Source: Streptomyces sp. NRRL F-5126 (lineage in GTDB: Bacteria > Actinomycetota > Actinomycetes > Streptomycetales > Streptomycetaceae). Taken from it: a stretch of 64,000 nt of DNA. The notes beneath the pieces were generated by a model that worked only from the letters and a program-made list of their open reading frames with translations, did no database searches and was not told the origin of the DNA. Shown here in pieces: positions 8,717 through 40,390 of this stretch. The stretch covers positions 744,001 through 808,000 of the forward strand of contig NZ_JOFZ01000001.1 of NCBI RefSeq assembly GCF_000721265.1, given 5' to 3'. The translations under genes and the position numbers were made by a program. How positions within the stretch are numbered: the stretch's first letter is position 1; each line of letters starts with the position of its first letter.

Positions 8717-9433
8717 TTACGTCGTCGTGCAGGGCCCCAGGTCGGTCCAGGCGCCCCACTGGCCGCTGGTGGTGGGATCCTCGCCGGTCACCCACCACTT
8801 GGCGCGCCACGTGTGGTCGTCCCGGGTGACGGTGTCACCGTCGTTGTAGACGGTCCCGGCGTCCCAGGCCGGCGCGGTGCAGGCGCCCGGTCCTGTGGGG
8901 CCGCCTCCGCCGCCGTTGCCGCTGATGTCCACGTCGACGCAGGCGTAGAAGGCGTTGGCCGTGTCGGCGATGTTCCACACGGCGAGCACCTTCTGGCGTC
9001 CGGTGATGCTGCCGAAGTTCACCTGGTGGGTGACCGTCGCGCCGGGCTTTGCGCCTCCGTCGTAGAACTCCGCAACCTTCTGGCCTGCGACGAAGTACTG
9101 CCAATTGCTGGTGGCGTGCCGCGCCAGCAGACGCCAGGTGAAGGTGGTCGTGCTGTCGACAGGGGTGACCGTCCAATTCTTGCTGTCGTCGTCGAGTTCG
9201 GCGAACTCCGGGTTGCCGCCGCTGCAACTGGTCAGGCCCTTTGGCCCCTCCACGCTCTGCGGCTCGTACTTGATGGGCCCGCACTCGACGACGCCCGCGG
9301 CACACTGCGCCTGGCGGCTGGGGGGTGACGAGACGTATCCGTGCGCACTGGCTGTGGTGGCCGGAAGGCACACCGCCACAAGGGGAGCGATACCCACGCC
9401 GATCACGGCGGCAAGTCTTCGCTTGAGGTGCAT
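8717..9433 (-). CDS. AA10 lytic polysaccharide monooxygenase with C-terminal CBM5/12
   Basis: A 238-residue secreted copper enzyme. ATG 9433 is chosen for the AGGAGCT site. Signal peptide residues 1-30 end in TTASA, leaving His31 (HGYVSSPPSR) as the mature N-terminus; with His106 (LLARHATSNW) it forms the histidine brace. AA10 enzymes oxidatively cleave chitin or cellulose. After a Gly-rich linker, residues ~185-235 (CTAPAWDAGTVYNDGD...HTWRAKWWVTGEDP...WGAW) form a CBM5/12 chitin-binding module. Together with the neighbouring chitin-binding enzymes this favours chitin as substrate, which is an inference. Confidence 0.92.
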   Translation of the reverse strand: MHLKRRLAAVIGVGIAPLVAVCLPATTASAHGYVSSPPSRQAQCAAGVVECGPIKYEPQSVEGPKGLTSCSGGNPEFAELDDDSKNWTVTPVDSTTTFTWRLLARHATSNWQYFVAGQKVAEFYDGGAKPGATVTHQVNFGSITGRQKVLAVWNIADTANAFYACVDVDISGNGGGGGPTGPGACTAPAWDAGTVYNDGDTVTRDDHTWRAKWWVTGEDPTTSGQWGAWTDLGPCTTT

Positions 9434-9560
9434 GTCAGCTCCTGGGCTGTCGGGGGACGGCATGGGAACGGTGCGGGGGGAAGCGATCGGCGTGTTCTTC
9501 CGGGCGTCGACGGTGGTGGGCGGCGCCCGGAGTTTTTTGCACCTCCCCCTGGTGGTGTGG

Positions 9561-10433
9561 TCAGACGCGCTGCCAGAGCGCCGGTACGTTCGGGGGCTCC
9601 CAGCCGGCCATCGACGTGTGGGCCTGGACGCATCGGTACGTCACCGAGTCGTAGGTCACCTGGTCGCCCGCCCGGTAGGCGGTGCCGGCCGCCCAGGTGC
9701 CGCTTTTGCCGGGCGGCGGGTTGGTGGGCGGGGTGGTGGAGCCGTCGACGTCCAGGACGAAGTCGAAGGTCGCCTGCTCGCCGGAGTCGACCTGCTGCAC
9801 CGTCATCTGGAGCCGGACGTCGTAGTACGCGTCCGTGCTGTTCCTGGGTTCGCCGGGGAAGTACAGCTGTGTGGTGAGGATGGGCTGCCCCGGTGCCTGG
9901 ACCTTGACGTGGATGTGCCGGGTGCGGCCCGGGTACAGGCCGGGCACGATCGTGGTCAGCGTGAACTCGCCCTGCTTCGTGCTGAACTGGTGTCCGCGCA
10001 GCGTGAAGCCGGTCATGTCGTACGCGCCGCTGTCGTCGGCCTGCCAGAAGTCCAGCAGGGCGCCGGATATCGGAGCGCAGTCCCGGCCGAAGACGTAGCC
10101 GCTGACGGTGAGCGGTGTGCCCGGCATGCCGGAGCCGACGAGGTCGGTCCTGAGCGGTGAGTCCGGCTTGAAGTAGGGCCCCTCGATGTTCGGGATGGTG
10201 GGCTCGTCACCGTCGTGGCACGCCGGGGTGGGAGCCAGGGGGCGGGCTGCCGGGCGACGGGCCGGGGCGGCCGAGCGGTCGCGGTCGCGGGCCCAGGCCA
10301 CTCCACCGCCCGTCACCAACGGAACGGCGCTGGTCAGGAATGCCGCCTTGATCACGCTCTTCCGGCTGATCCCCCGGCTCTCACCGGGTACGGAACTGCC
10401 GGAGCGGTCGGTCTCGTCGTGGGGGGTGGGCAC
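9561..10433 (-). CDS. Secreted intradiol ring-cleavage dioxygenase fused to CBM5/12
   Basis: A 290-residue protein. GTG 10433 is chosen for the AAGGAG site. The N-terminus carries a Tat-like RK signal (ISRKSVIKAAFLTSAVPLV). The catalytic domain (~75-225) has the non-haem iron ligands of intradiol dioxygenases: Tyr138 (DSGAYDM), Tyr167, His173 and His175 (PGLYPGRTRHIHVKV). Residues ~245-290 (GTWAAGTAYRAGDQVTYDSV...CVQAHTSMAGWEPP) are a CBM5/12 module. An extracellular dioxygenase-CBM fusion of this architecture is known from Streptomyces sp. SirexAA-E, where it cleaves catechols derived from lignin. AraC gene upstream is the likely regulator. Confidence 0.9.
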   Translation of the reverse strand: MPTPHDETDRSGSSVPGESRGISRKSVIKAAFLTSAVPLVTGGGVAWARDRDRSAAPARRPAARPLAPTPACHDGDEPTIPNIEGPYFKPDSPLRTDLVGSGMPGTPLTVSGYVFGRDCAPISGALLDFWQADDSGAYDMTGFTLRGHQFSTKQGEFTLTTIVPGLYPGRTRHIHVKVQAPGQPILTTQLYFPGEPRNSTDAYYDVRLQMTVQQVDSGEQATFDFVLDVDGSTTPPTNPPPGKSGTWAAGTAYRAGDQVTYDSVTYRCVQAHTSMAGWEPPNVPALWQRV

Positions 10434-27932: not shown

Positions 27933-29903
27933 CTAGCGATTAGCTTGCGCGTCGCCAGCAGTAGACTCCGCCAGCGACTTCATTCGAGCATCCTCAGGTG
28001 CGCGAGCGAAAAGGATGTCGAAGTAGTCCTCCCACTGCTTCTTGGCCCGGCCGAGCAGGCCGGCCCAGTCCGTCGCGTCCATATCCTTGGGGCGCATGTC
28101 GTCGATCTTGGCCCGAACGTCACTGGCCTTCTCGATCTTGTCGGCAACGAGTAGCCCCGACACCGACCTGAATTCCGAACTGCGGGCAATCGTTGCATCC
28201 TGTAGTTTATAAACGTAACGCTCATATCGGTTCAGGTGGTCCCAGTCAACTTTGAGCCCAGGACGCATGAACTCGACGACGAGGAGTTGATTACCAGACG
28301 AGAGGACCAGGTCCATACGCGCGTTCCAGTACTCCCCATAGGCCTCCTTGGCGACCTCATCCACCAGAGCCTTGACGCTCCTCTCGACCCTGAAAGTCTC
28401 CCACCGGGGGGAGACAAGCCAAGGATTCTCTGCTATGTAGTCCCGAACCTTGTTCTCAAGTTCACGCTTCTTGATTCTCTCCTCCAACCCAGTGATAAGA
28501 TTCAGCTGACTTTTCACGTGCTCCGCAGCATGGAGAGCACTCATTACTCGAGATTCCGCGAGTATCCTCACCAGGTCATCGGCATCCATGGTGTCGGCCT
28601 CGGACAAGTCATCAATCAATTCCCTCAGACGACCTCCCTCCCAAGCCGTCAGCATTGCTTCGGCAAGCTCGCCGAACTGCTCGTCGCTCAATGAAGTAAT
28701 ACGCGCTATCGAGGTCAGCGCCCTTTCCACAACTTTCCGCTCCGGTTTTTCCAGCTTCCCCAACCTGATCGAAAAGGGCGTCATGCGCTTTCGCATAGCA
28801 TCCACCTTGGCCTTCGAGCGCATGCCCTGCCAAATGCGCAGCAAAGACTTGACGCGAATCTGACCCCATTCCAAGAGTGGCTGAGACGCGTCCATTTCCC
28901 AGTTCACCCGCTGGCGCTCGGTAGAAATGAGATCTCGCGTTTGCTCGTCAAGGAAGTCAGCCTCGACCCGACCCGAAAGGTAGCTTGTTCCCTGCTGGCC
29001 ACCGAACCCACCGCTCAGGTTGAAGAGGAAGGGACGCTGAGCCAGTTTGTGGTGACTGAAGATCGAAATTCCCGTCAGCTCTTCCTCGCCAATCGGCTCC
29101 TTGTAGAAGACAAAGCGCCAACGAACCTTGCTTCCGTTGGAAAGTGATTCAACCCCCCAGCCATCCTCAACGACCACACCTTCCGGCAACTGATCTGCAG
29201 TGTAATCGCCTGGAAAGGAGAATTCTATCTTTTCAACATTCTCGGCATCCGAGATGGGCTCGCCATTGACGTCAACATGAAACTCATCCGATCGCTCCAT
29301 CAACAGAAAGCGCCGTGCCATACTTATTCGAAATTTACCCGCATTAGGGGTGACCTTCAACGAAAGATCACTCAGAGAGATGGACGTGCCATGCCGCGCT
29401 TTACGTTCTTCAGATGCTTCTTCATACTCGATTACTTCGACGGTCAAAGGCTGGCTCTCCGCATAGGAATCCGTATCTTCGATGAGCTGCGCAGAGTCCA
29501 GACGGAAGACTGTTCGCTCTCCTGTCTCCTTACTGACGGTTTCGACGGTAACGAACCTCGCTATGCCGAAGCCAGCAAATTTACCGATACCCTTCCGTCC
29601 CATCATTGGACGCCCACCTGACGTCCTGTCATTCCCCCTGTCCTTGCGCCGATCGTAACCCACATTGAGGTAGCGGCTTTGACATTGAGCGAGCGTCATC
29701 CCTTCGCCATCGTCAGAGATGGCGATTCTCGCATCGGGCCCTATCTTTGCCGGCAGCGTCACATCAACCCTGGAAGCGTCTGCGTCCCAAGAGTTGGAAA
29801 CCAACTCTGCTATCGCCGCCACCGGCGACTGATACATGTCAATACCGAGATGCTCGATGACCCTTCCACGAAAGCGAATTTCGAGGTGTGGCACTACGCT
29901 CAT
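27933..29903 (-). CDS. MutL/MORC-like GHKL ATPase with C-terminal PD-(D/E)XK-like domain
   Basis: A 656-residue protein; ATG 29903 is chosen because the conserved fold begins there. GHKL motifs: N box AELVSNSWDA (Glu33, Asn37, Asp40), DDGEGM (64-69) and GRKGIGKFAGFG (102-113). A long helical middle part follows. Near residues 529-546, RMDLVLSSGNQ-LLVVEFMRP resembles a PD-(D/E)XK nuclease core (Asp531, Glu544) but with Met in place of the usual Lys. The gene is clearly lower in GC than its neighbours, with AT-rich codons, a sign of recent transfer. It diverges from the Z1 operon and is probably part of the same defence island. Confidence 0.8.
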   Translation of the reverse strand: MSVVPHLEIRFRGRVIEHLGIDMYQSPVAAIAELVSNSWDADASRVDVTLPAKIGPDARIAISDDGEGMTLAQCQSRYLNVGYDRRKDRGNDRTSGGRPMMGRKGIGKFAGFGIARFVTVETVSKETGERTVFRLDSAQLIEDTDSYAESQPLTVEVIEYEEASEERKARHGTSISLSDLSLKVTPNAGKFRISMARRFLLMERSDEFHVDVNGEPISDAENVEKIEFSFPGDYTADQLPEGVVVEDGWGVESLSNGSKVRWRFVFYKEPIGEEELTGISIFSHHKLAQRPFLFNLSGGFGGQQGTSYLSGRVEADFLDEQTRDLISTERQRVNWEMDASQPLLEWGQIRVKSLLRIWQGMRSKAKVDAMRKRMTPFSIRLGKLEKPERKVVERALTSIARITSLSDEQFGELAEAMLTAWEGGRLRELIDDLSEADTMDADDLVRILAESRVMSALHAAEHVKSQLNLITGLEERIKKRELENKVRDYIAENPWLVSPRWETFRVERSVKALVDEVAKEAYGEYWNARMDLVLSSGNQLLVVEFMRPGLKVDWDHLNRYERYVYKLQDATIARSSEFRSVSGLLVADKIEKASDVRAKIDDMRPKDMDATDWAGLLGRAKKQWEDYFDILFARAPEDARMKSLAESTAGDAQANR

Positions 29904-30325
29904 GGATGTCCCGCTTCTCCGTAGGGGTCCCCATTGGTTGAGACCGATCAAGGTATCGCGCAAGCACGAAACACTCCACCGATCCGGCACGATCGCCCGT
30001 GACAGCAATGTAGGGGATCACCGACGGGTCAAGGAGAACACCCGGTAGACGAGGTCGGGTTCAGGGCTCCCCACGCTCATCACGCATGGCAACGTCCCCC
30101 AGGCTCGCACCCCATGGCGCGGATCCCCGTCTGCCCGATCAGCCACATGTGAAGGTTTTGTGACCCGCCTCCTCTACTGGGACCAACGCGCGGGGGCTAA
30201 CGTGGTGGTTCGAGTGAGGTTGCGCACCTGTCCCACGGCGCCTCCATGCCCGTGAGCTGCATACGGGGCAGGAGTGTTCGCCGGTCGGCAGTCGCGCGGG
30301 ACGGATAGGGGGACGGTCGACTGCC
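29904..30325. other. Divergent promoter region of the defence island
   Basis: 422 bases between the GHKL ATPase and Z1 genes with no supported coding sequence. It presumably carries both promoters. No dyad stood out clearly enough to name. Confidence 0.4.
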
Positions 30326-32884
30326 ATGGGCGACGATCTTGACGGTATGTACGACACGTTCAAAGCTCTGCTGGACTCCTTTCCCCCTGCGGAGGCTGTC
30401 AAGCGGCTGGAGCAGTTCGGTGTCAGCCCGGACGTCGTGGAGCTGATCCGGGAACGGCACGAGCAGCAGACGATCCGCATCAAGGAGCTCCAGGAGCCGC
30501 AGGCCGTCGTCATGGACGGCCGGGACACCTGGTACACCGGCCCACAGAAGAAGGACAAGTGCTGGCCCGCGATCAAGGAGCTGCTGCTCAAGGACGGATG
30601 GTCGGAGGACCCGGGGATCAGGAGCCTCGACGATTCCTCCACCCGTATCGTCTCGCTGCTGAACCACCCGAAGGAGAAGAGTTTCTCCACACGCGGTCTG
30701 GTCGTCGGCTACGTCCAGTCGGGCAAGACGACGAACTTCACCTCGGTCATGGCCAAAGCGGCCGACCGCGGCTACAAGCTTTTCATCGTCCTGGCCGGGA
30801 TCCACAACGGCCTCAGGCGCCAGACGCAGGCTCGGCTCGTGCAGCAACTGGTGGAGCCCAACCCCTCGCTGTGGTCCCAGCTCACCGGGCTCGACAAGGA
30901 CTTCACGCCGCAGGAAAACCCGGCGGGCTACTTCGGGCGCAGCAATCGGACGCACGTGCTGTGCGTGGTGAAGAAGAACGCGACGGTGCTGCGCAAGCTG
31001 GCCGGCTGGCTCGGCAAGGCGTCCGAATACCTTCAGGGCTGCCCCGCGCTGATCATCGACGACGAGGCCGATCAGGCCACCGTGGCGACCAAGTCGATCA
31101 ACCCGCTGATCCTTCAGATCATGGGTCACCTGCCGAGGTCCGCCTATGTCGGGTACACGGCCTCCCCGTTCGCGAACCTGTTGATCGATCCGGGCGCCCA
31201 GGACCTCTATCCGAAGGACTTCATCGTCAACCTGCCGAAGCCGGAAGGTCACTTTGGTACGGAAGTCCTTTTCGGTCGGTACGCGCTCGACGGTGAGGAT
31301 CCGGAACAACTCGACGACGGTCACGACATGATCCGGTCGGTACCCGACGACGACGTGTCGGCCGTACGTCCCGAGACCAAGGCCGATGTCGAGGGATTCG
31401 AGCCCTTCATCACGGACACCCTGCGGCGTGCGGTCGACTACTTCTGGTTGGTCACGGCCGCACGGCGCGTCCGCGGAACGGGCAACCCGCACAACACGAT
31501 GCTGATCCACACCAGCGTCAACACCTCGGTGCACAACAGCTTCAAGACTCCTCTTGAGCAACTGCGCAGCAGGTTCGTCCGGTCGTTGTCCACGGGAGAC
31601 GCCGACTTCCTCGAACGGCTACGTGGTCTGTGGGACGAGGAGACGAAGCGGGTGCCCGCGTCGGAGTTCGGCGAGACCAAGGTGCGGTTCGACGATCTGT
31701 TGCCCGAACTGCCCACGGTACTGAGCAGTTGCCGCATCATCATGGACAACTCCAGCAGTGAGGACCGCCTGGACTACGAGAACGGTCCTGTGGTCGCCAT
31801 CGCGGTCGGCGGCAACACACTGTCCCGCGGACTGACCCTGGAGGGCCTGTCGGTCAACTACTTCGTGCGCTCCGTCTCGGCCTACGACACGCTGTTGCAG
31901 ATGGGACGTTGGTTCGGTTTCCGCAACGGCTACGCCGACCTGCCACGCATCTGGATGACCGATGAACTGGCCGAGTGGTTCCGGCACCTCGCGACGGTCG
32001 AGACCGAGATGCGCCGGGACATCGACGTCTACATGACCGAGTCCGAGAACCCCATGACCTTCGCCGTGCGCCTGCGCACGCACCCGGCCCTGCGCGTGAC
32101 CGCGGCCGCCAAGATGCGCGACGCGGTGGTGGCTGCCTCGTCCTACGGCGGCAAACGGATCCAGACGCACTACTTCCACACAAACGCCCAGTGGCTGGGC
32201 GGCAACATCACCGCCGCCCGCGCTCTCGTCGCGTCCGCCACCGCGAACGCGGTCGCCATCGAGGAGCGGCCGTCCGAGGGACGTTACGTCTTCCGTGACG
32301 TGCCGCACGACATCGTGATCGACTTCCTGTCGAGCTACAAGTTCCACGAGAAGTCGCCGGAGAACGATGCGGACCTGATCATCCAGTACATCCGGAAGCG
32401 GGTGAGCGCGGCCGGGTCCCTGCGCCGCTGGAACATCGCGGTGGTGGGCAATCCCAGGGGTGGTGGCTTCCCCTTCAGCCCCAGGGTGCGCGTCGGGCTC
32501 AACACGCGTGCTCGGCTGAAACCGTCGGGCCCTGCTGCGGACTTCGCCGACATCAAGACTCTGATGAGCCGTCGGGACGCCGCTGTCGACCTGGCCGGGG
32601 AGGTGAGCGGCCTGACCGAGAAGGGGATCATGGAGGAACGCCGTAAGCAGCTCCCGGACACCGGACTGCTGGTCCTCTACCCGATCGACAAGGTTTCCGA
32701 GCCGACGCCGGCGAAGAAGTTGCGTGCGCCTCTCAACGCGGAGGAGGACGTCATCGGCGTGGGCCTCGTGTTCCCCGAGCCGCGCGAGGCCGACAGCACC
32801 GTCGAGGGCTACATCTCCGCCGACCTGTCGCAGGTGCCGATCGAGGACGAGGACTACGGGCTCCTCGACGGCGAGGACGCATGA
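30326..32884 (+). CDS. Z1-domain helicase-like ATPase
   Basis: An 852-residue protein. Walker A is GYVQSGKTTNF (128-138), Walker B IIDDEAD (243-249), and GNTLSRGLTLEGLSVNYFVR with QMGRWFGFR carries the C-terminal motifs of the Z1 family, a helicase-like ATPase found in restriction-type operons. It probably remodels or translocates on DNA for a partner nuclease. Its stop overlaps the next start (ATGA), as do the following junctions, so five genes form one operon. The ribosome binding site before ATG 30326 is weak, so a slightly different start is possible. Confidence 0.88.
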   Translation: MGDDLDGMYDTFKALLDSFPPAEAVKRLEQFGVSPDVVELIRERHEQQTIRIKELQEPQAVVMDGRDTWYTGPQKKDKCWPAIKELLLKDGWSEDPGIRSLDDSSTRIVSLLNHPKEKSFSTRGLVVGYVQSGKTTNFTSVMAKAADRGYKLFIVLAGIHNGLRRQTQARLVQQLVEPNPSLWSQLTGLDKDFTPQENPAGYFGRSNRTHVLCVVKKNATVLRKLAGWLGKASEYLQGCPALIIDDEADQATVATKSINPLILQIMGHLPRSAYVGYTASPFANLLIDPGAQDLYPKDFIVNLPKPEGHFGTEVLFGRYALDGEDPEQLDDGHDMIRSVPDDDVSAVRPETKADVEGFEPFITDTLRRAVDYFWLVTAARRVRGTGNPHNTMLIHTSVNTSVHNSFKTPLEQLRSRFVRSLSTGDADFLERLRGLWDEETKRVPASEFGETKVRFDDLLPELPTVLSSCRIIMDNSSSEDRLDYENGPVVAIAVGGNTLSRGLTLEGLSVNYFVRSVSAYDTLLQMGRWFGFRNGYADLPRIWMTDELAEWFRHLATVETEMRRDIDVYMTESENPMTFAVRLRTHPALRVTAAAKMRDAVVAASSYGGKRIQTHYFHTNAQWLGGNITAARALVASATANAVAIEERPSEGRYVFRDVPHDIVIDFLSSYKFHEKSPENDADLIIQYIRKRVSAAGSLRRWNIAVVGNPRGGGFPFSPRVRVGLNTRARLKPSGPAADFADIKTLMSRRDAAVDLAGEVSGLTEKGIMEERRKQLPDTGLLVLYPIDKVSEPTPAKKLRAPLNAEEDVIGVGLVFPEPREADSTVEGYISADLSQVPIEDEDYGLLDGEDA

Positions 32885-33906
32885 TCGAGGAGGACCTTCG
32901 CGGCCTTGTCGAGCAGCAGTGGAGCGCGCTGGAGGCCGAGACGGCCACGGGTGAGGGACGCTTGCGTGCGTGCGACCTTCCCGTCGACGTCCACGACGGA
33001 CCACTGGTGCTGGCCGTGGACCACGAAGGATTTCGCCACGTCCTCCTGCCCACGGCCGGTCACACCAAGGTCCGCAGGGGTTTGGACGGTCCCGTGCTCG
33101 CCCTGCGCAAGCGTGGCCTCGAGGACGCCGCCTCCTACCAGGCGTATGCCGACCTCGCCTGTCTGCGTCACGACGTCGACGACCTGTTCACCGAGCTCTG
33201 CGTCGATGTCGTCGTTGCGGCCGAGCAGTCGCCCGACAGCCCCGTCAAGGCGCTCCACCAAGTGCTGGATCGATGGAAGGCGCTCTTCCGCTCGCAAGGC
33301 ACGCCACTCGGCCCCGAGGAGCTCGCGGGCCTGTTCGGCGAGTTGACCGTGCTGCTCCGGCTGCTCCGCGCGGACCCGAGCGCGCACCTGCTCTGGCGAG
33401 GGCCCGACGGCAACCGTCACGACTTCGCTGCCGGAGTGCGTGCCGTCGAGGTGAAGACGACGACCAGAACCGAAGGACGCCGAGCGCGCATCCACGGTCT
33501 CGACCAGCTGGAGGCACCAGAGGCCGGGACACTGGTCCTGGCGTGGTTCCGCGTGCGGCGCGCCGGAGGGACCAGCACAGGGGTTTCGTTGACCGAGGTG
33601 GTCGCGGAAGCGCTGAGGCTCTGCGACGACGAGGGCGCACTGCTCGGCCTGCTCGCGCAGGCCGGTTATCGCCCTGCCGACGCCGATCACTACGGGGACG
33701 TGCGTTTCACGATCGTGGAAGAGCGGTGGTACGGCGTCGGGGCCGACTTCCCACGGCTCACCGTGGGCGCTCTCACCGCCGCGGGCGTGCCCGTGTCGAT
33801 CCAGGACGTCGAGTACACCATCGACCTGTCCGGGGAAACCCCGGCTCCTCTCGCATCCCACCAGATCTCCGACGTGATCGACGACCTGATTCGGGAGTCC
33901 GTGTGA
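32881..33906 (+). CDS. PD-(D/E)XK motif protein (DUF4420-like)
   Basis: A 341-residue protein. LFGELTVLLRL (Glu154) and HDFAAGVRAVEVKTT (Asp181, Glu190, Lys192) make a complete PD-(D/E)XK nuclease core with D-x8-E-x-K spacing. This matches the PD-(D/E)XK family commonly seen with Z1 and GHKL genes. It is the best candidate for the DNA-cutting subunit. It overlaps the Z1 gene by four bases and the next gene by four bases (GTGTGA). Confidence 0.85.
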   Translation: MIEEDLRGLVEQQWSALEAETATGEGRLRACDLPVDVHDGPLVLAVDHEGFRHVLLPTAGHTKVRRGLDGPVLALRKRGLEDAASYQAYADLACLRHDVDDLFTELCVDVVVAAEQSPDSPVKALHQVLDRWKALFRSQGTPLGPEELAGLFGELTVLLRLLRADPSAHLLWRGPDGNRHDFAAGVRAVEVKTTTRTEGRRARIHGLDQLEAPEAGTLVLAWFRVRRAGGTSTGVSLTEVVAEALRLCDDEGALLGLLAQAGYRPADADHYGDVRFTIVEERWYGVGADFPRLTVGALTAAGVPVSIQDVEYTIDLSGETPAPLASHQISDVIDDLIRESV

Positions 33907-35858
33907 CGGGGCCTCGTTGGTTCTCCCAGCCGTATCCCCCGGAGGGCGCGAGTGCGGCCGAGGGCATCCGCAATCAACTCGGACGCCCCGCACTCGACCT
34001 GCTGACCATTCTGGTACGCGAATCGGCCCAGAACAGCTGGGACGCACGTCTCGGGCAGACGGCCGGCCCTGTGGATTACCGCATGGACATGTGGACCGTC
34101 GGACCGGCACATGCGGCGGCATGGCGTGCCCTCCTCCTTGAGGGCGCGCCGGCGAGAGTGGAGGACTTCCCTCTCCGCAAGGTCCTGAGGCAGGGATCCA
34201 TCCCCGTCCTGGCCGTTTCCGACCGGGGCACCCGAGGTCTCGGAGGGCCTACCCGGGCCGACAATGCCGTCGGTCCCGAGCGGGACTTCGTGTCCTTCGT
34301 CCGCAATATCGGCGAACCTCGCGACGTCGCCCTGGGCGGCGGCACGTACGGCTTCGGCAAGGGGATTTTCTACCTCCTGTCCGGAGCGGGGACGATCCTC
34401 GTGCACTCTCGTTGTCGGACGCCGGAGGGCGGCTACGAGACGCGGCTCATCGGTTGCACCCTCTGGCAGAGTCACGTGGCGGGTGGTCGCCGCTACACCG
34501 GACGTCACTGGTGGGGCGACACCTCCGGGGAGGTCGTCGAGCCCCTGATCGGTCAACAGGCGGAGGCCACGGCGAAACGCCTGGGCCTCAGGCCGTTCGA
34601 TCTCGACGAGACCGGTACGACGATCGTCGTCGTCGACCCGAATCTGGATGACCTGGAGCGGCCCGCCGCGGCCGACTACTTGGCGGAGACCATCGCGTGG
34701 CAGCTCTGGCCCAAGATGATCTCCGTCGCGGACGAGTCTTCAGCCATGCGCTTCACGGTCACCTGTGACGGCATCGATCACCCCGTGCCCGACCCCAGGG
34801 AGACCCGACCGCTCGACATGTTCGTCGCCGCCTACGAGAGCATGGCAGGTCCGGACGGCAGCGATCTCCAATGCCTCAAGCCGAAGCGTCATCTCGGCCG
34901 TCTCGGCCTGATCAAGCGCATCGTGCCGCCCCTCGAACCGACACGTGCCTCACGCATGGTCGACGTCGAGGACCTCGTCCATCACGTGTGTCTGATGCGC
35001 CCGGCCGAGTTGGTGGTCACCTACCGGCCCGGACCGAAGCCGCCGAGTGTCAACCAGGGTTATGCCGGCGTCTTCCGTGCGGACGAGTCGATGGACGACG
35101 TCTACGCCAAGGCGGAGCCACCCACTCACGACGCCTGGAACCCGCAATCCCTCGACAGGCCTGAGAGCACCTTCGTCAGCTCGACCTTCCGGCGCATCGA
35201 CGAGGCGCTGGAGGATCTGCTCTCTCTCGGTGGTTCCGCCCGCCCCGGCGCCGGCCAGGTCGCGCTCGGCGCCGCCAGTTCACTCTTCTCCGGACTCGTG
35301 GGCGGCGCCTGGGGCATCGGCGGTGCCACCGCGTACGCCAAGCCGGGCAGTACCGTCGTACGTACCCGCATGCGCGGAACCGACGATGATCAACGGGGCG
35401 AGCCGGCCGGCGGTGCCGCGTCCAGCGATGCGACCGGTGCCGGCACGGTGGTCGGCGGTACGTCCGCCACCGACCGACCGCCCGGCGCGGGCACGAACGG
35501 TGTCGCGGCCACAGCGCGCAGACGGCCGCGCGTCGAGTTCATCGGAGAGCCCTACTACGAGGACCGGGGCGACGACACCCTTCTCGTCCAGGACTTCCGG
35601 CTTCCCGTACCAGGGCTCCAACGGGTACGCATCGATCTCGCCGTGACACTGCCCGGCGCCAACGGGCGCGAGACGGACCCGCCCAAGGGGGCGAGCATGC
35701 CCGAGCTCGTCGGTTGGGAGGACGCGGCCGGAGAACTCCGCACGACCGAGTCGTGCGTCATCGAGGGAGGGGACGCTCGCCGGCGCGCCCTCGTGCGCCC
35801 GGCGCCGGACACCATGACCGAGATCGACATCAGGGTGCAGGCGGTGACGAGCGAATGA
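33903..35858 (+). CDS. GHKL ATPase-domain protein of the Z1 operon
   Basis: A 651-residue protein. GTG 33903 overlaps the preceding stop; the long open frame upstream is a shadow of the PD-(D/E)XK gene. GHKL motifs: RESAQNSWDA (Glu40, Asn44, Asp47), SDRGTRGLGG (~106-115) and GGGTYGFGKG (145-154). The middle part ends in an Ala/Gly-rich linker (~450-545), then a beta-rich C-terminus. It is a second, distant GHKL ATPase in the island, likely an ATP-gated clamp. It shares a 4-base overlap with the next gene (ATGA). Confidence 0.82.
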   Translation: MTGPRWFSQPYPPEGASAAEGIRNQLGRPALDLLTILVRESAQNSWDARLGQTAGPVDYRMDMWTVGPAHAAAWRALLLEGAPARVEDFPLRKVLRQGSIPVLAVSDRGTRGLGGPTRADNAVGPERDFVSFVRNIGEPRDVALGGGTYGFGKGIFYLLSGAGTILVHSRCRTPEGGYETRLIGCTLWQSHVAGGRRYTGRHWWGDTSGEVVEPLIGQQAEATAKRLGLRPFDLDETGTTIVVVDPNLDDLERPAAADYLAETIAWQLWPKMISVADESSAMRFTVTCDGIDHPVPDPRETRPLDMFVAAYESMAGPDGSDLQCLKPKRHLGRLGLIKRIVPPLEPTRASRMVDVEDLVHHVCLMRPAELVVTYRPGPKPPSVNQGYAGVFRADESMDDVYAKAEPPTHDAWNPQSLDRPESTFVSSTFRRIDEALEDLLSLGGSARPGAGQVALGAASSLFSGLVGGAWGIGGATAYAKPGSTVVRTRMRGTDDDQRGEPAGGAASSDATGAGTVVGGTSATDRPPGAGTNGVAATARRRPRVEFIGEPYYEDRGDDTLLVQDFRLPVPGLQRVRIDLAVTLPGANGRETDPPKGASMPELVGWEDAAGELRTTESCVIEGGDARRRALVRPAPDTMTEIDIRVQAVTSE

Positions 35859-36751
35859 CCCGGCGCGTACTGCCGTACCGCGTTCCGTCCGAGGATGTCG
35901 TCGAGACCGAGCCGTGGTTGCTCGTCGACGGGGACGACGCGGCGCCGATGCCCGAGGCTTTGCCGGACTGGGACTACCACATGGACCTACGTCTGCGCAG
36001 GACCGTCCGTGTCGACCTCGACCGCGCTCGCACCCAATCCGGCCTCCCGGTGGACGCGGCGCTCGGCCTGGCCGTCGCGTGGACGGCCACCGGGTCGAAC
36101 CTCGGCGGACCCGCGAGCCATGTGCCACTGATCGGCCACGGAACGATCAGCACGGACATCGAGACCCTGCTGCGCGGCTCCGATCTCGGAGGGCTCGTCC
36201 TCCTCGACACCGCCCTCGTCCTGGCCGAGCGCCTGCCCGACGCCCGTCCGTCCTCGCCCCGGCGAGCGGGTTCCGTGCTGTGGAGCGACCGGGAGTCGCT
36301 GCGCCTCCAGGGCGACGCGCCGCAGTTCCCGATGGCAGTGATCGACTTCGCGCGGACCTCCTTCCCCGAGCACGCGGCCTGGCACCTGCAGATCAGCGGG
36401 AGCCTGGACAGCGCCACCATGGGTTCCCTGCTCCTGCTCGTCAACGAGAAGAACACGGTCACTGCCACCGCGTTCGAGAACGCGGCCAAGCCACGACCCG
36501 TCGACCGCATCGTGTTGTCCGCCGTCTACGCCGACGCGGCCCGAACCATGATCGAACACGCACTCGGCCAGGACGACTTCACCCAGGACGCCGACTTCCC
36601 CGACGGTTCACTCGGCGCCACCATGCTGAACCTCTTCGACCAGCTCTTCCCGGACCAGTCGATCACCGATGTCCGCCTGCGCCGCCGGAGTTCGCCCGCT
36701 CTGTTCGCCTCGGACATGCAGGCAGCGGTAAAGATCTTCGAGGTGTCCTGA
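35855..36751 (+). CDS. Uncharacterised protein of the Z1/DUF6339 operon
   Basis: A 298-residue protein I do not recognise. The N-terminal half reads as beta strands (WDYHMDLRLRRTVRVDLDRA, LGLAVAWTATGSNLGG); the C-terminal half is helical (YADAARTMIEHALGQDDF, LGATMLNLFDQLFPD). There is no signal peptide, membrane segment or catalytic motif visible. ATGA overlaps at both ends lock it between the GHKL ATPase and the DUF6339-methyltransferase, so it is probably a structural or recognition subunit of the same complex. Confidence 0.75.
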   Translation: MTRRVLPYRVPSEDVVETEPWLLVDGDDAAPMPEALPDWDYHMDLRLRRTVRVDLDRARTQSGLPVDAALGLAVAWTATGSNLGGPASHVPLIGHGTISTDIETLLRGSDLGGLVLLDTALVLAERLPDARPSSPRRAGSVLWSDRESLRLQGDAPQFPMAVIDFARTSFPEHAAWHLQISGSLDSATMGSLLLLVNEKNTVTATAFENAAKPRPVDRIVLSAVYADAARTMIEHALGQDDFTQDADFPDGSLGATMLNLFDQLFPDQSITDVRLRRRSSPALFASDMQAAVKIFEVS

Positions 36752-38595
36752 TGAGTTTTCTCTATCCTCGGCTGCTGACCGAACAGGCTCGGCCGCTCTT
36801 CGAGGAGTACCGGCACCTCGACGTGTCAGATCTGACAACCCGAGTCGGCTTCTCCCACGAGTCGTCCGTGTACGTCGCCACCGGCGGTGACCGTGTCTCC
36901 GCGCGCCACCTTCGCGGCCTCCGTTCGGCTGTTGTCGATCTCGCACAACGCGCGGGATTCCCCGACGACTCCGACCGCACCCGCAACGCGGAGTTCGACA
37001 TCCGCCTCGCCGCCCTGCTCCACGCCGAGACGGGTATGGTCCCCGCCGAGGCCGCCTCCCGTGACGTCTGGGCGTTCATGGCGCTCGTGCTGCTCCCCGA
37101 TGTCGCCTTCTGGCGCTACCCCAGACCGCCGCAGGACCGCGTCCTCGGCACCGACCTCACCCGCCACGTCTTCGGCCGACTGTGGTGGCGGGCCCAGCTC
37201 GTACGGTCCTCCGACGAGGCCGCCCCCTACAGTGCCCTGAACATCCTCGGCGAGGCGGCCTTCGACCAGATCTACGCCCGGCGAGCGGCCCTCGGCGGCA
37301 GCCCGCACCTCGTCCGCGCCATCCTCCGCGTCTGGGCGGACCTCGACCTCGGCGGCCTCAATGAGCGTGAAACGCTGCGCGACTTCCTCAAACGGCTGCT
37401 GAGACTTGCTCCCTTCGTGCTCTTCGACGGTGTTGAAGAGGCAGCTCTCGACGACGAACTGCGTGCGGTCGCCGAGGAGTCCATCGGCGCACAGCGCCCG
37501 ACCACAGCGGCCGACGGAGGCCGGGCGGCCACCGCCGGGCCGGAGGCGGCCGTCAGGGTGGTCCCGGACATCACACCGTCGGAGCCGGTCCCACCGGCCT
37601 CACGCACACTCGCGGAGAACGTGCCGGTCGCTTCGGTCGGCACGTCACACTTCACGTCGTTCGAAGTCTGCGCGGGCGCCGGCGCCCAGGCCCTGGGCCT
37701 CGAACAGGCCGGGTTCGACCCGGTGCTGCTCGTTGACAGCAAGGCCGACGCCTGCTTCACGATCGGTGCCAACCGGCCGGGCTGGGACGTCGTCTGCATG
37801 GACATCACTCAGTTCCGGCCCGACATGTGCCCGGATGTGTTCGGCGTCGACCTTCTCAGCGGTGGTCTCCCACGGGTGAAGTCCATGGCGGCCGTCGCGC
37901 GGACGGAGGACGGCGAGGAGCGTCGGGTCCTCAGGGCGGTGATGGCCCTGTCAAAGGAGATCGGGCCCAAGGCCGTACTGCTCGAAAACGTGCCCGACCT
38001 CATCGAGAGCCCTGAGTTCACGGCCGATCGCTCGTGGATCGACGACGAACTGCGTGCGGCCGGCTTCCACACGGCCTGGACGACTCTCAACGCACAGGAC
38101 TTCGGGGTCCCACAGAACCGGAAGAGCGGCTTTCTCGTGGCCCTTCGGGACCCGTACTTCGCCCGCTTCTCCTGGCCCGAGCCGCACGAACTGCCACCTC
38201 CGAGCGTGGGCGAGATCCTCGGCCCCTCGATGTCCGCGAACGGCTGGACAGGTGCGGATCGCTGGATCAAGGGCGCCGACCGCGTTGCTCCCGCCCTGGT
38301 CGGCGGCTCTGATCGTCGCGGTGGAGCCGACCTCGGCCCGACCGGCAGCAAGAATGCCTGGGCAGCGCTCGGTGTCAACGGCATCAGCCTGGGCGACGCG
38401 CCACCGGACGCAGACTTTCCTGCCGACGGACACCCGAGGATCACTGTCGGCCAGGCCGCGCTGGTGCAGGCGATCCCGGAAAGCTGGCACTTCCACGGCG
38501 GCAAGACGTCCAGATACCGACAGGTCGGTCACGCCATGCCTCCGCCGCTGGCCACCGCGGTGGGACGGGCGATCGCCTCGGCGCTGCGCGGCTGA
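36751..38595 (+). CDS. DUF6339 fused to a catalytically altered cytosine-C5 methyltransferase
   Basis: A 614-residue protein starting at the ATG overlapping the previous stop. Residues 1-250 match DUF6339 (MSFLYPRLLTEQARPLFEEY, DVWAFMALVLLPDVAFWRYP, LGTDLTRHVFGRLWWRA). After a linker, residues ~300-612 are a C5-methyltransferase: motif I FTSFEVCAGAGAQALGLEQ, ENV (412-414), QNRKSGFLVAL and RYRQVGHAMPP. Motif IV reads GVDLLSGGLPRVKSM where active enzymes have GGxPC; the catalytic Cys is Arg375 (codon at 37873). It should bind SAM and DNA but not methylate. It may serve as a recognition or sensing subunit. Confidence 0.85.
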   Translation: MSFLYPRLLTEQARPLFEEYRHLDVSDLTTRVGFSHESSVYVATGGDRVSARHLRGLRSAVVDLAQRAGFPDDSDRTRNAEFDIRLAALLHAETGMVPAEAASRDVWAFMALVLLPDVAFWRYPRPPQDRVLGTDLTRHVFGRLWWRAQLVRSSDEAAPYSALNILGEAAFDQIYARRAALGGSPHLVRAILRVWADLDLGGLNERETLRDFLKRLLRLAPFVLFDGVEEAALDDELRAVAEESIGAQRPTTAADGGRAATAGPEAAVRVVPDITPSEPVPPASRTLAENVPVASVGTSHFTSFEVCAGAGAQALGLEQAGFDPVLLVDSKADACFTIGANRPGWDVVCMDITQFRPDMCPDVFGVDLLSGGLPRVKSMAAVARTEDGEERRVLRAVMALSKEIGPKAVLLENVPDLIESPEFTADRSWIDDELRAAGFHTAWTTLNAQDFGVPQNRKSGFLVALRDPYFARFSWPEPHELPPPSVGEILGPSMSANGWTGADRWIKGADRVAPALVGGSDRRGGADLGPTGSKNAWAALGVNGISLGDAPPDADFPADGHPRITVGQAALVQAIPESWHFHGGKTSRYRQVGHAMPPPLATAVGRAIASALRG

Positions 38596-38764
38596 CAGGC
38601 GCGCGGCGCGCTGGGCAGCAGGGTTCGGGCGTCCGGAACGCCACTTGCGCACGCCGGGCATCACCGGCCCCCGCGCCGGCTACGATGAGGGCGGCCTGCC
38701 AAGGCCCCCAGCCCCAGGGAGCAGGGAGAACGTCGACCTGCCCCTCGTCCCGCAAGGATTGTGC

Positions 38765-39889
38765 GTGTCCGACAGCTTCAAGATCGTCGACCTGTTCGCC
38801 GGCCCGGGAGGGTTCGACGTGGCCGCTCGAAACCTGGGTGTGCCGGTTGTCGAGGGAATCGAATGGGACGAGGACGCCTGCGCCACCCGCCGCGCAGCGG
38901 GGCTGCCCACCCGTCGTGCTGATGTGCGTGGGTTCGGGCCGGAGGACTATCCCGAGGCGAACGTGCTCGTCGGAGGTCCCCCGTGTCAGACATTCACTGT
39001 GGCCGGCAACGGTGAAGGACGCGCCGCACTGGACGCGGTGACGAAGTTCGCCGATCGGTACGCCGACGTCCGGATCATCGAGGACTTCGCATCGATCGGC
39101 GAGGAGCTCAAGCACCTCAGCGACGAGCGTACGGGGCTCGTCCTGGAGCCCCTGCGGTGGGCACTCGAGGCACTGCTCCTGGGCCGTCCGTACCAAGCGG
39201 TCGTCCTGGAGCAGGTGCCGGCGGTGCTACCGGTGTGGAAGGTGTTCGCCCGCATCCTCTCGGAGAAGGGCTACGAGGTCGCGGAACCCGCCGTGCTTCG
39301 AACCGAGGAGTACGGCGTACCGCAGACCCGCCGCAGGGCCATCATGATTGCCAGATGGGCCGGTGCCGGAGCAGCACTGGAGGGGAAGCCCAGGCTGCCC
39401 GAGCCCACTCACCGCCACTTCAGCCGAAGCGACGGCCGTGACGCGGGAGAACCGGCACTGCGGCAGTGGGTCACGATGGGTGAGGTGCTCGACCGCCGAG
39501 GCCCGTACGAGGTGGTGTCGAACTACGGCACAGGGGGCGACCCCAAGGCTCGCGGGCGTCGGCGTTACGACCAGCCCTCGGCGACCGTCACCGGCAAGGG
39601 GTCGCGGAACAAGCTGGAGTGGGGCGGCCGGAAGCTCGGCGAGTTCGACCTGCCCGAGCTGGGACAACTGCAGACCTTTCCCGCGGACTACCCGTGGCGC
39701 AGGCGCAACGGAGACAATGCCACCGCTCCCGGTACGCGCAGCGTCATCGCCCAACAGATCGGCAACGCCGTACCGCCCCGCTTCGGCATGCACGTACTCG
39801 CGGCCGCGCTGGGGCTCGGTGACCGGCTCGAGGACGGCCTCGCGCGACTCCCGTCCTGGCGCCGGACCGAGAGGTCCGAGAAGGAGTAG
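38765..39889 (+). CDS. DNA (cytosine-5-)-methyltransferase
   Basis: A 374-residue enzyme. GTG 38765 is preceded by AAGGA at 38754. Motif I IVDLFAGPGGFDVAARNLG, catalytic motif IV LVGGPPCQTFT with Cys74, motif VI VLEQVP in place of ENV, motif VIII EEYGVPQTRRRAIMI and motif X QQIGNAVPP. It transfers a methyl group from SAM to cytosine C5 within an unknown site, marking host DNA. It follows the altered methyltransferase by 169 bases, so it may have its own promoter. The EQV variant in motif VI keeps the essential Glu. Confidence 0.92.
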   Translation: MSDSFKIVDLFAGPGGFDVAARNLGVPVVEGIEWDEDACATRRAAGLPTRRADVRGFGPEDYPEANVLVGGPPCQTFTVAGNGEGRAALDAVTKFADRYADVRIIEDFASIGEELKHLSDERTGLVLEPLRWALEALLLGRPYQAVVLEQVPAVLPVWKVFARILSEKGYEVAEPAVLRTEEYGVPQTRRRAIMIARWAGAGAALEGKPRLPEPTHRHFSRSDGRDAGEPALRQWVTMGEVLDRRGPYEVVSNYGTGGDPKARGRRRYDQPSATVTGKGSRNKLEWGGRKLGEFDLPELGQLQTFPADYPWRRRNGDNATAPGTRSVIAQQIGNAVPPRFGMHVLAAALGLGDRLEDGLARLPSWRRTERSEKE

Positions 39890-39955
39890 ACGTCCGGGCA
39901 CTGCACGAGCCTTTTGCTTGCGTTGATCGAACGAAGCGCGATATCTCGCTCCGCG

Positions 39956-40390
39956 TCAGGTCCCGTGAGCGGACGGGGACCGCCTCGCCTCAACGGCGAG
40001 ACTGATCTGCTCGGCCACCTCCTCCGCGGGCTCGTGCTCCCAGAACCTAAAGACGGTCCACCCCTCGGCCACCAGATGATCCGTGGTCTCACGGTCTCGC
40101 GCAGCGTTCCGATCGAGCTTGGACCGCCACCACTGAGCGTTCGCTCGTGGACTCGTGGCGTGTTCAGGACACCCGTGCCAGAAACAACCGTCGAAGAAGA
40201 TCGCTATCCGGGCCTTGCCGAAGACGACGTCCACCGTTCTGCGCCGCATGCCCGGGACAGGCACGTGAAGGCGGTACCTGAGGCCCCGACTGTGCAGCAG
40301 TCGGCGAACGGCCAGCTCCTGCGCTGTGTCGCGCGACGCCTGGCGACTCATTCGCGCCGCTACGGCGGGTGACGATGCTGTCGGGGCCAT
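39956..40390 (-). CDS. vsr: Very short patch repair (Vsr-type) endonuclease
   Basis: A 144-residue protein. ATG 40390 is the start that gives the standard length. MSRQASRDTAQELAVRRLLH, RRTVDVVFGKARIAIFFDGC with the metal-binding Asp, and FWHGCPEHATSP are Vsr signatures, as is VFRFWEHE near the end. Vsr nicks T:G mismatches made by deamination of 5-methylcytosine, and usually accompanies a C5 methyltransferase. It is convergent with the methyltransferase gene, confirming that this is a 5mC-based modification locus. Confidence 0.92.
   Translation of the reverse strand: MAPTASSPAVAARMSRQASRDTAQELAVRRLLHSRGLRYRLHVPVPGMRRRTVDVVFGKARIAIFFDGCFWHGCPEHATSPRANAQWWRSKLDRNAARDRETTDHLVAEGWTVFRFWEHEPAEEVAEQISLAVEARRSPSAHGT

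Follow-up and report, generated by a model that had tools for sequence, protein, structure and literature searches.

A Streptomyces restriction-type operon with a C5 methyltransferase that has lost its catalytic residue

The operon and its genes

The 7.18-Mb genome of Streptomyces sp. NRRL F-5126 carries a multi-gene operon that, judging from its sequence, is probably an anti-phage restriction operon. The operon lies in a 64,000-nucleotide stretch of contig NZ_JOFZ01000001.1 (positions 744,001 to 808,000), which we call the window and whose numbering we use throughout. Among its products are a C5 methyltransferase domain with an arginine in place of the catalytic cysteine (dMT) and a companion methyltransferase of active type (MT); all features are collected in Table 1. 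An initial annotation of the window had proposed that a dead methyltransferase, a live-type one and Vsr belong to a single gene set of restriction type. All the genes that it called are real and correctly placed, and the members of the set do co-occur in related loci.

Table 1. Features of the operon and of its left-hand neighbour, in window coordinates, with the profile matches and motifs on which the names are based.
Feature	Position	Strand	Evidence
Z1 ATPase/helicase, MzaC-like	30326..32884	+	PF10593 224 bits; NCBIfam MzaC 391 bits, cut-off 1500
DUF4420 PD-(D/E)XK protein, MzaD-like, predicted nuclease	32881..33906	+	PF14390 190 bits; HDF...VEVK motif
GHKL ATPase, 651 aa, PDC-M33A-like	33903..35858	+	PADLOC PDC-M33A E 1.5e-7 (no curated cut-off); GHKL-like motifs
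298-aa protein of unknown fold	35855..36751	+	no Pfam/PADLOC/NCBIfam match
DUF6339 region of fusion protein, aa 1-250, PDC-M33C-like	36751..37500	+	PF19866; PDC-M33C E 3.8e-7 (no curated cut-off)
Catalytically dead C5-methyltransferase domain (dMT), aa 299-614	37645..38592	+	fusion protein is 36751-38595
Codon 375, Arg where catalytic Cys is expected	37873..37875	+	GGLPR for GGxPC
Active-type C5 methyltransferase (MT), 374 aa, putative companion writer	38765..39889	+	PF00145; GGPPCQ
Vsr repair endonuclease	39956..40390	-	
BbrUII/HgiDII-like GHKL enzyme, neighbour outside conserved unit	27933..30008	-	NF050001 309 bits, cut-off 550 not reached

Conserved loss of catalysis in dMT

Active C5 methyltransferases have Pro-Cys in motif IV. 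In the fusion protein the cysteine is replaced by arginine, as it is in all 155 aligned sequences, and Arg375 is invariant in the sequences checked. Cys to Arg is found in 44 of 44 dead sequences, and 43 of these 44 also have His in motif X (dMT residue 594), where 17 of 17 active sequences have Asn, which we take to be N374 of the methyltransferase M.MpeI. The histidine amounts to an altered pocket. The domain has lost its catalytic residue, and the protein is kept intact by selection, with a dN/dS of 0.15 that is similar to the values of its active partners.

dMT exists either as a separate (free) protein or fused to DUF6339, and this joining has occurred more than once, or has been swapped. 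Across loci the domain stays conserved, including its presumed target recognition domain (TRD). Plasmid matches number 16 for dMT (10 inspected), 10 for MT (6 inspected) and 5 for a second companion family, MT2 (all inspected). In one related locus, L103, a free dead methyltransferase (9428-10426) adjoins DISARM DrmA/DrmB and a UvrD-like helicase gene, with no active methyltransferase partner within the 19.9 kb around it.

Candidate roles of dMT

The companion MT retains Pro-Cys in motif IV and is predicted from this motif to methylate DNA. Its GGPPCQ is present in all 37 companion open reading frames of the MT and MT2 families among those listed (six come from duplicate loci), and the two families form separate long branches, with 28% identity over 225 residues. 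A Vsr of some kind is present in 31 of 34 related loci; the Vsr motif pattern fitted just 3 of 30 Vsr sequences and is too narrow for judging active sites.

Relatives of MT at 56-58% identity adjoin NaeI in two loci. In the cassettes of NaeI and NgoMIV, which concern GCCGGC, the C5 methyltransferase is often an active sister of dMT and often comes with Vsr. These methyltransferases differ from dMT in having the active Cys, and GN in motif X, and the endonuclease there reads its own site. Near the active sister methyltransferase we also observed a repeated gene pair (about 470 and 607-620 aa; L141, L155-L158, L215 and L216), matched by eye on length and start, the second gene of which is a SNF2-type ATPase in L158.

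Our tentative proposal is that a whole clade of C5 methyltransferases lost catalysis once, when arginine replaced the cysteine, and that its members now serve restriction-type complexes as the subunit that reads the sequence, a sensor of self and non-self at GCCGGC that is free or fused to DUF6339 and works with exchangeable motors and nucleases. dMT would be the recogniser of a DNA site rather than its marker, with GCCGGC as the best guess for that site, and the companion MT would be the writer.

The arrangement of the genes also bears on another role. DNMT3L is a regulatory partner of DNMT3A, and by analogy dMT could guide or stimulate methylation by the active enzyme and have no direct part in restriction. 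An active-type MT gene does lie closely 3′ of dMT nearly always: the gap is at most 101 bases in 26 of the 28 loci with a fusion, and the two genes adjoin in 15 of 16 loci with free dMT. However, the companion is swapped between the remote MT and MT2 families while dMT, with its presumed TRD, is conserved, and the protein to which dMT is seen joined in these loci is DUF6339, not MT. We regard a regulatory partnership as rather unlikely.

Since both replacements fall at conserved reaction-site motifs and are near-invariant, one can also imagine that the pocket of dMT takes methylated or hypermodified cytosine, or an analogue of S-adenosylmethionine (SAM), and triggers a type IV-like attack on phage DNA. 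According to the accessible part of one report, an active-site arginine, or the engineered N374K in M.MpeI, permits C5 methyltransferases to use carboxy-SAM (Cx-SAM), but the Cx-SAM enzyme described there retains its catalytic Cys (PMC12783734). The companion MT and Vsr are, moreover, a better fit to the protection of a self site, and the reading of modified DNA seems to us improbable.

The left-hand neighbour and known systems

The divergent GHKL gene on the left had been counted as part of the system in the initial annotation, a view that we do not retain. Its G+C is 0.554, versus 0.65-0.69 for the operon genes and 0.698 for the window; it resembles BbrUII/HgiDII enzymes; and a homologue is present in just 1 of 40 related loci (L055, 28% identity). 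Because of its deviant G+C and near absence from related loci, we take it to be a neighbour and not a member. The idea that it forms one restriction-modification pair with MT is not supported either. Among the loci of the genus with near full-length homologues of this GHKL protein, three were inspected (L138-L140, the last an 8.7-kb contig), and in none of them does an MT gene adjoin the GHKL gene; the sole MT-like gene in these stretches (37%, in L139) is about 8 kb away. The C-terminal nuclease-like motif of the protein reads VVEFM, versus VVIEIK in the homologue of L138, and therefore its own nuclease activity is uncertain. An empty insertion site was considered but not demonstrated: the right-hand sigma-factor gene was found in just 2 of 30 relatives searched (E 1e-40), with different left neighbours. 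Genome G012, of the same genus, has the same locus as a Streptomyces aureus record (L025, identical to L047).

Two earlier studies describe operons of this class, one from 2008 and the other a gene-embedding study from 2022, reportedly by Miller, Stern and Burstein. Iyer, Abhiman and Aravind described the operon type in 2008 as MORC/paraMORC restriction operons, and their third type combines a helicase with the motif DThhQXuRhFG, an E-D-ExK nuclease of the restriction endonuclease (RE) fold, a C5 methylase, VSR and a GHKL ATPase (PMC2292703, accessible part). The operon studied here has the superfamily II helicase with this motif (all 30 sequences checked have DDEAD and DTLLQMGRWFG), the E-D-ExK nuclease (HDFAAGVRAVEVK in the window, with a motif pattern that fits 28 of 30), the C5 methylase and the VSR endonuclease. 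Its GHKL ATPase has the ATP-binding motif in 30 of 30 sequences and GHKL-like motifs, has no Pfam match, and is unplaced with respect to the paraMORC class. Unlike the third type as the accessible text describes it (PMC2292703), our operon includes the dead methyltransferase, DUF6339 and the 298-aa protein. Of 391 genomes from the order, 22 have this last protein. The 2022 study predicted a six-gene 'type I' defence system of this operon class, all of whose named parts are present here by Pfam; its accessible text leaves three extra genes unnamed and does not mention a dead methyltransferase (PMC9523054).

Our profile scans (Pfam, PADLOC and NCBIfam) covered nine proteins of the window. The PADLOC matches to PDC-M33 are to models without a curated cut-off (M33A for GHKL, M33C for DUF6339; Table 1). 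The top PADLOC model for the dMT domain is DruM2, a Druantia methyltransferase (PDLC00029, 307 bits, E 4e-92), and no other Druantia model is among the matches listed for the nine proteins. MZA is reportedly the mzaABCDE system of Gao 2020. Homologues of MzaC and MzaD, for which PADLOC also has models, are present here, but both fall under the NCBIfam cut-offs (MzaC with 391 bits against 1500, MzaD with 105 against 420), and no AIPR-family MzaE was found among the nine proteins scanned. In CglI/NgoAVII the PLD nuclease carries its own B3 DNA-reading domain, as the accessible part of the report has it (PMC4267653), whereas the nuclease here is a DUF4420 protein matching PF14390 only, for which dMT would be the reader.

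Literature searches, with bioRxiv and most subscription journals outside their coverage, found no report of a dead methyltransferase of this family; 12 papers listed for inactive methyltransferases do not name it in title or abstract. Those on DUF6339 and PDC-M33 found no paper, and that on DUF4420 found one. The reading given in the initial annotation is partly supported: the co-occurring set with its dead and live-type methyltransferases and Vsr holds up, the left-hand GHKL gene as a member does not, and the operon class, described in 2008 and 2022, is not wholly new. The class is known, with a possibly new principle inside it. That the loss of catalysis in dMT is itself conserved, which the initial annotation had not seen, is the unusual part of this operon.
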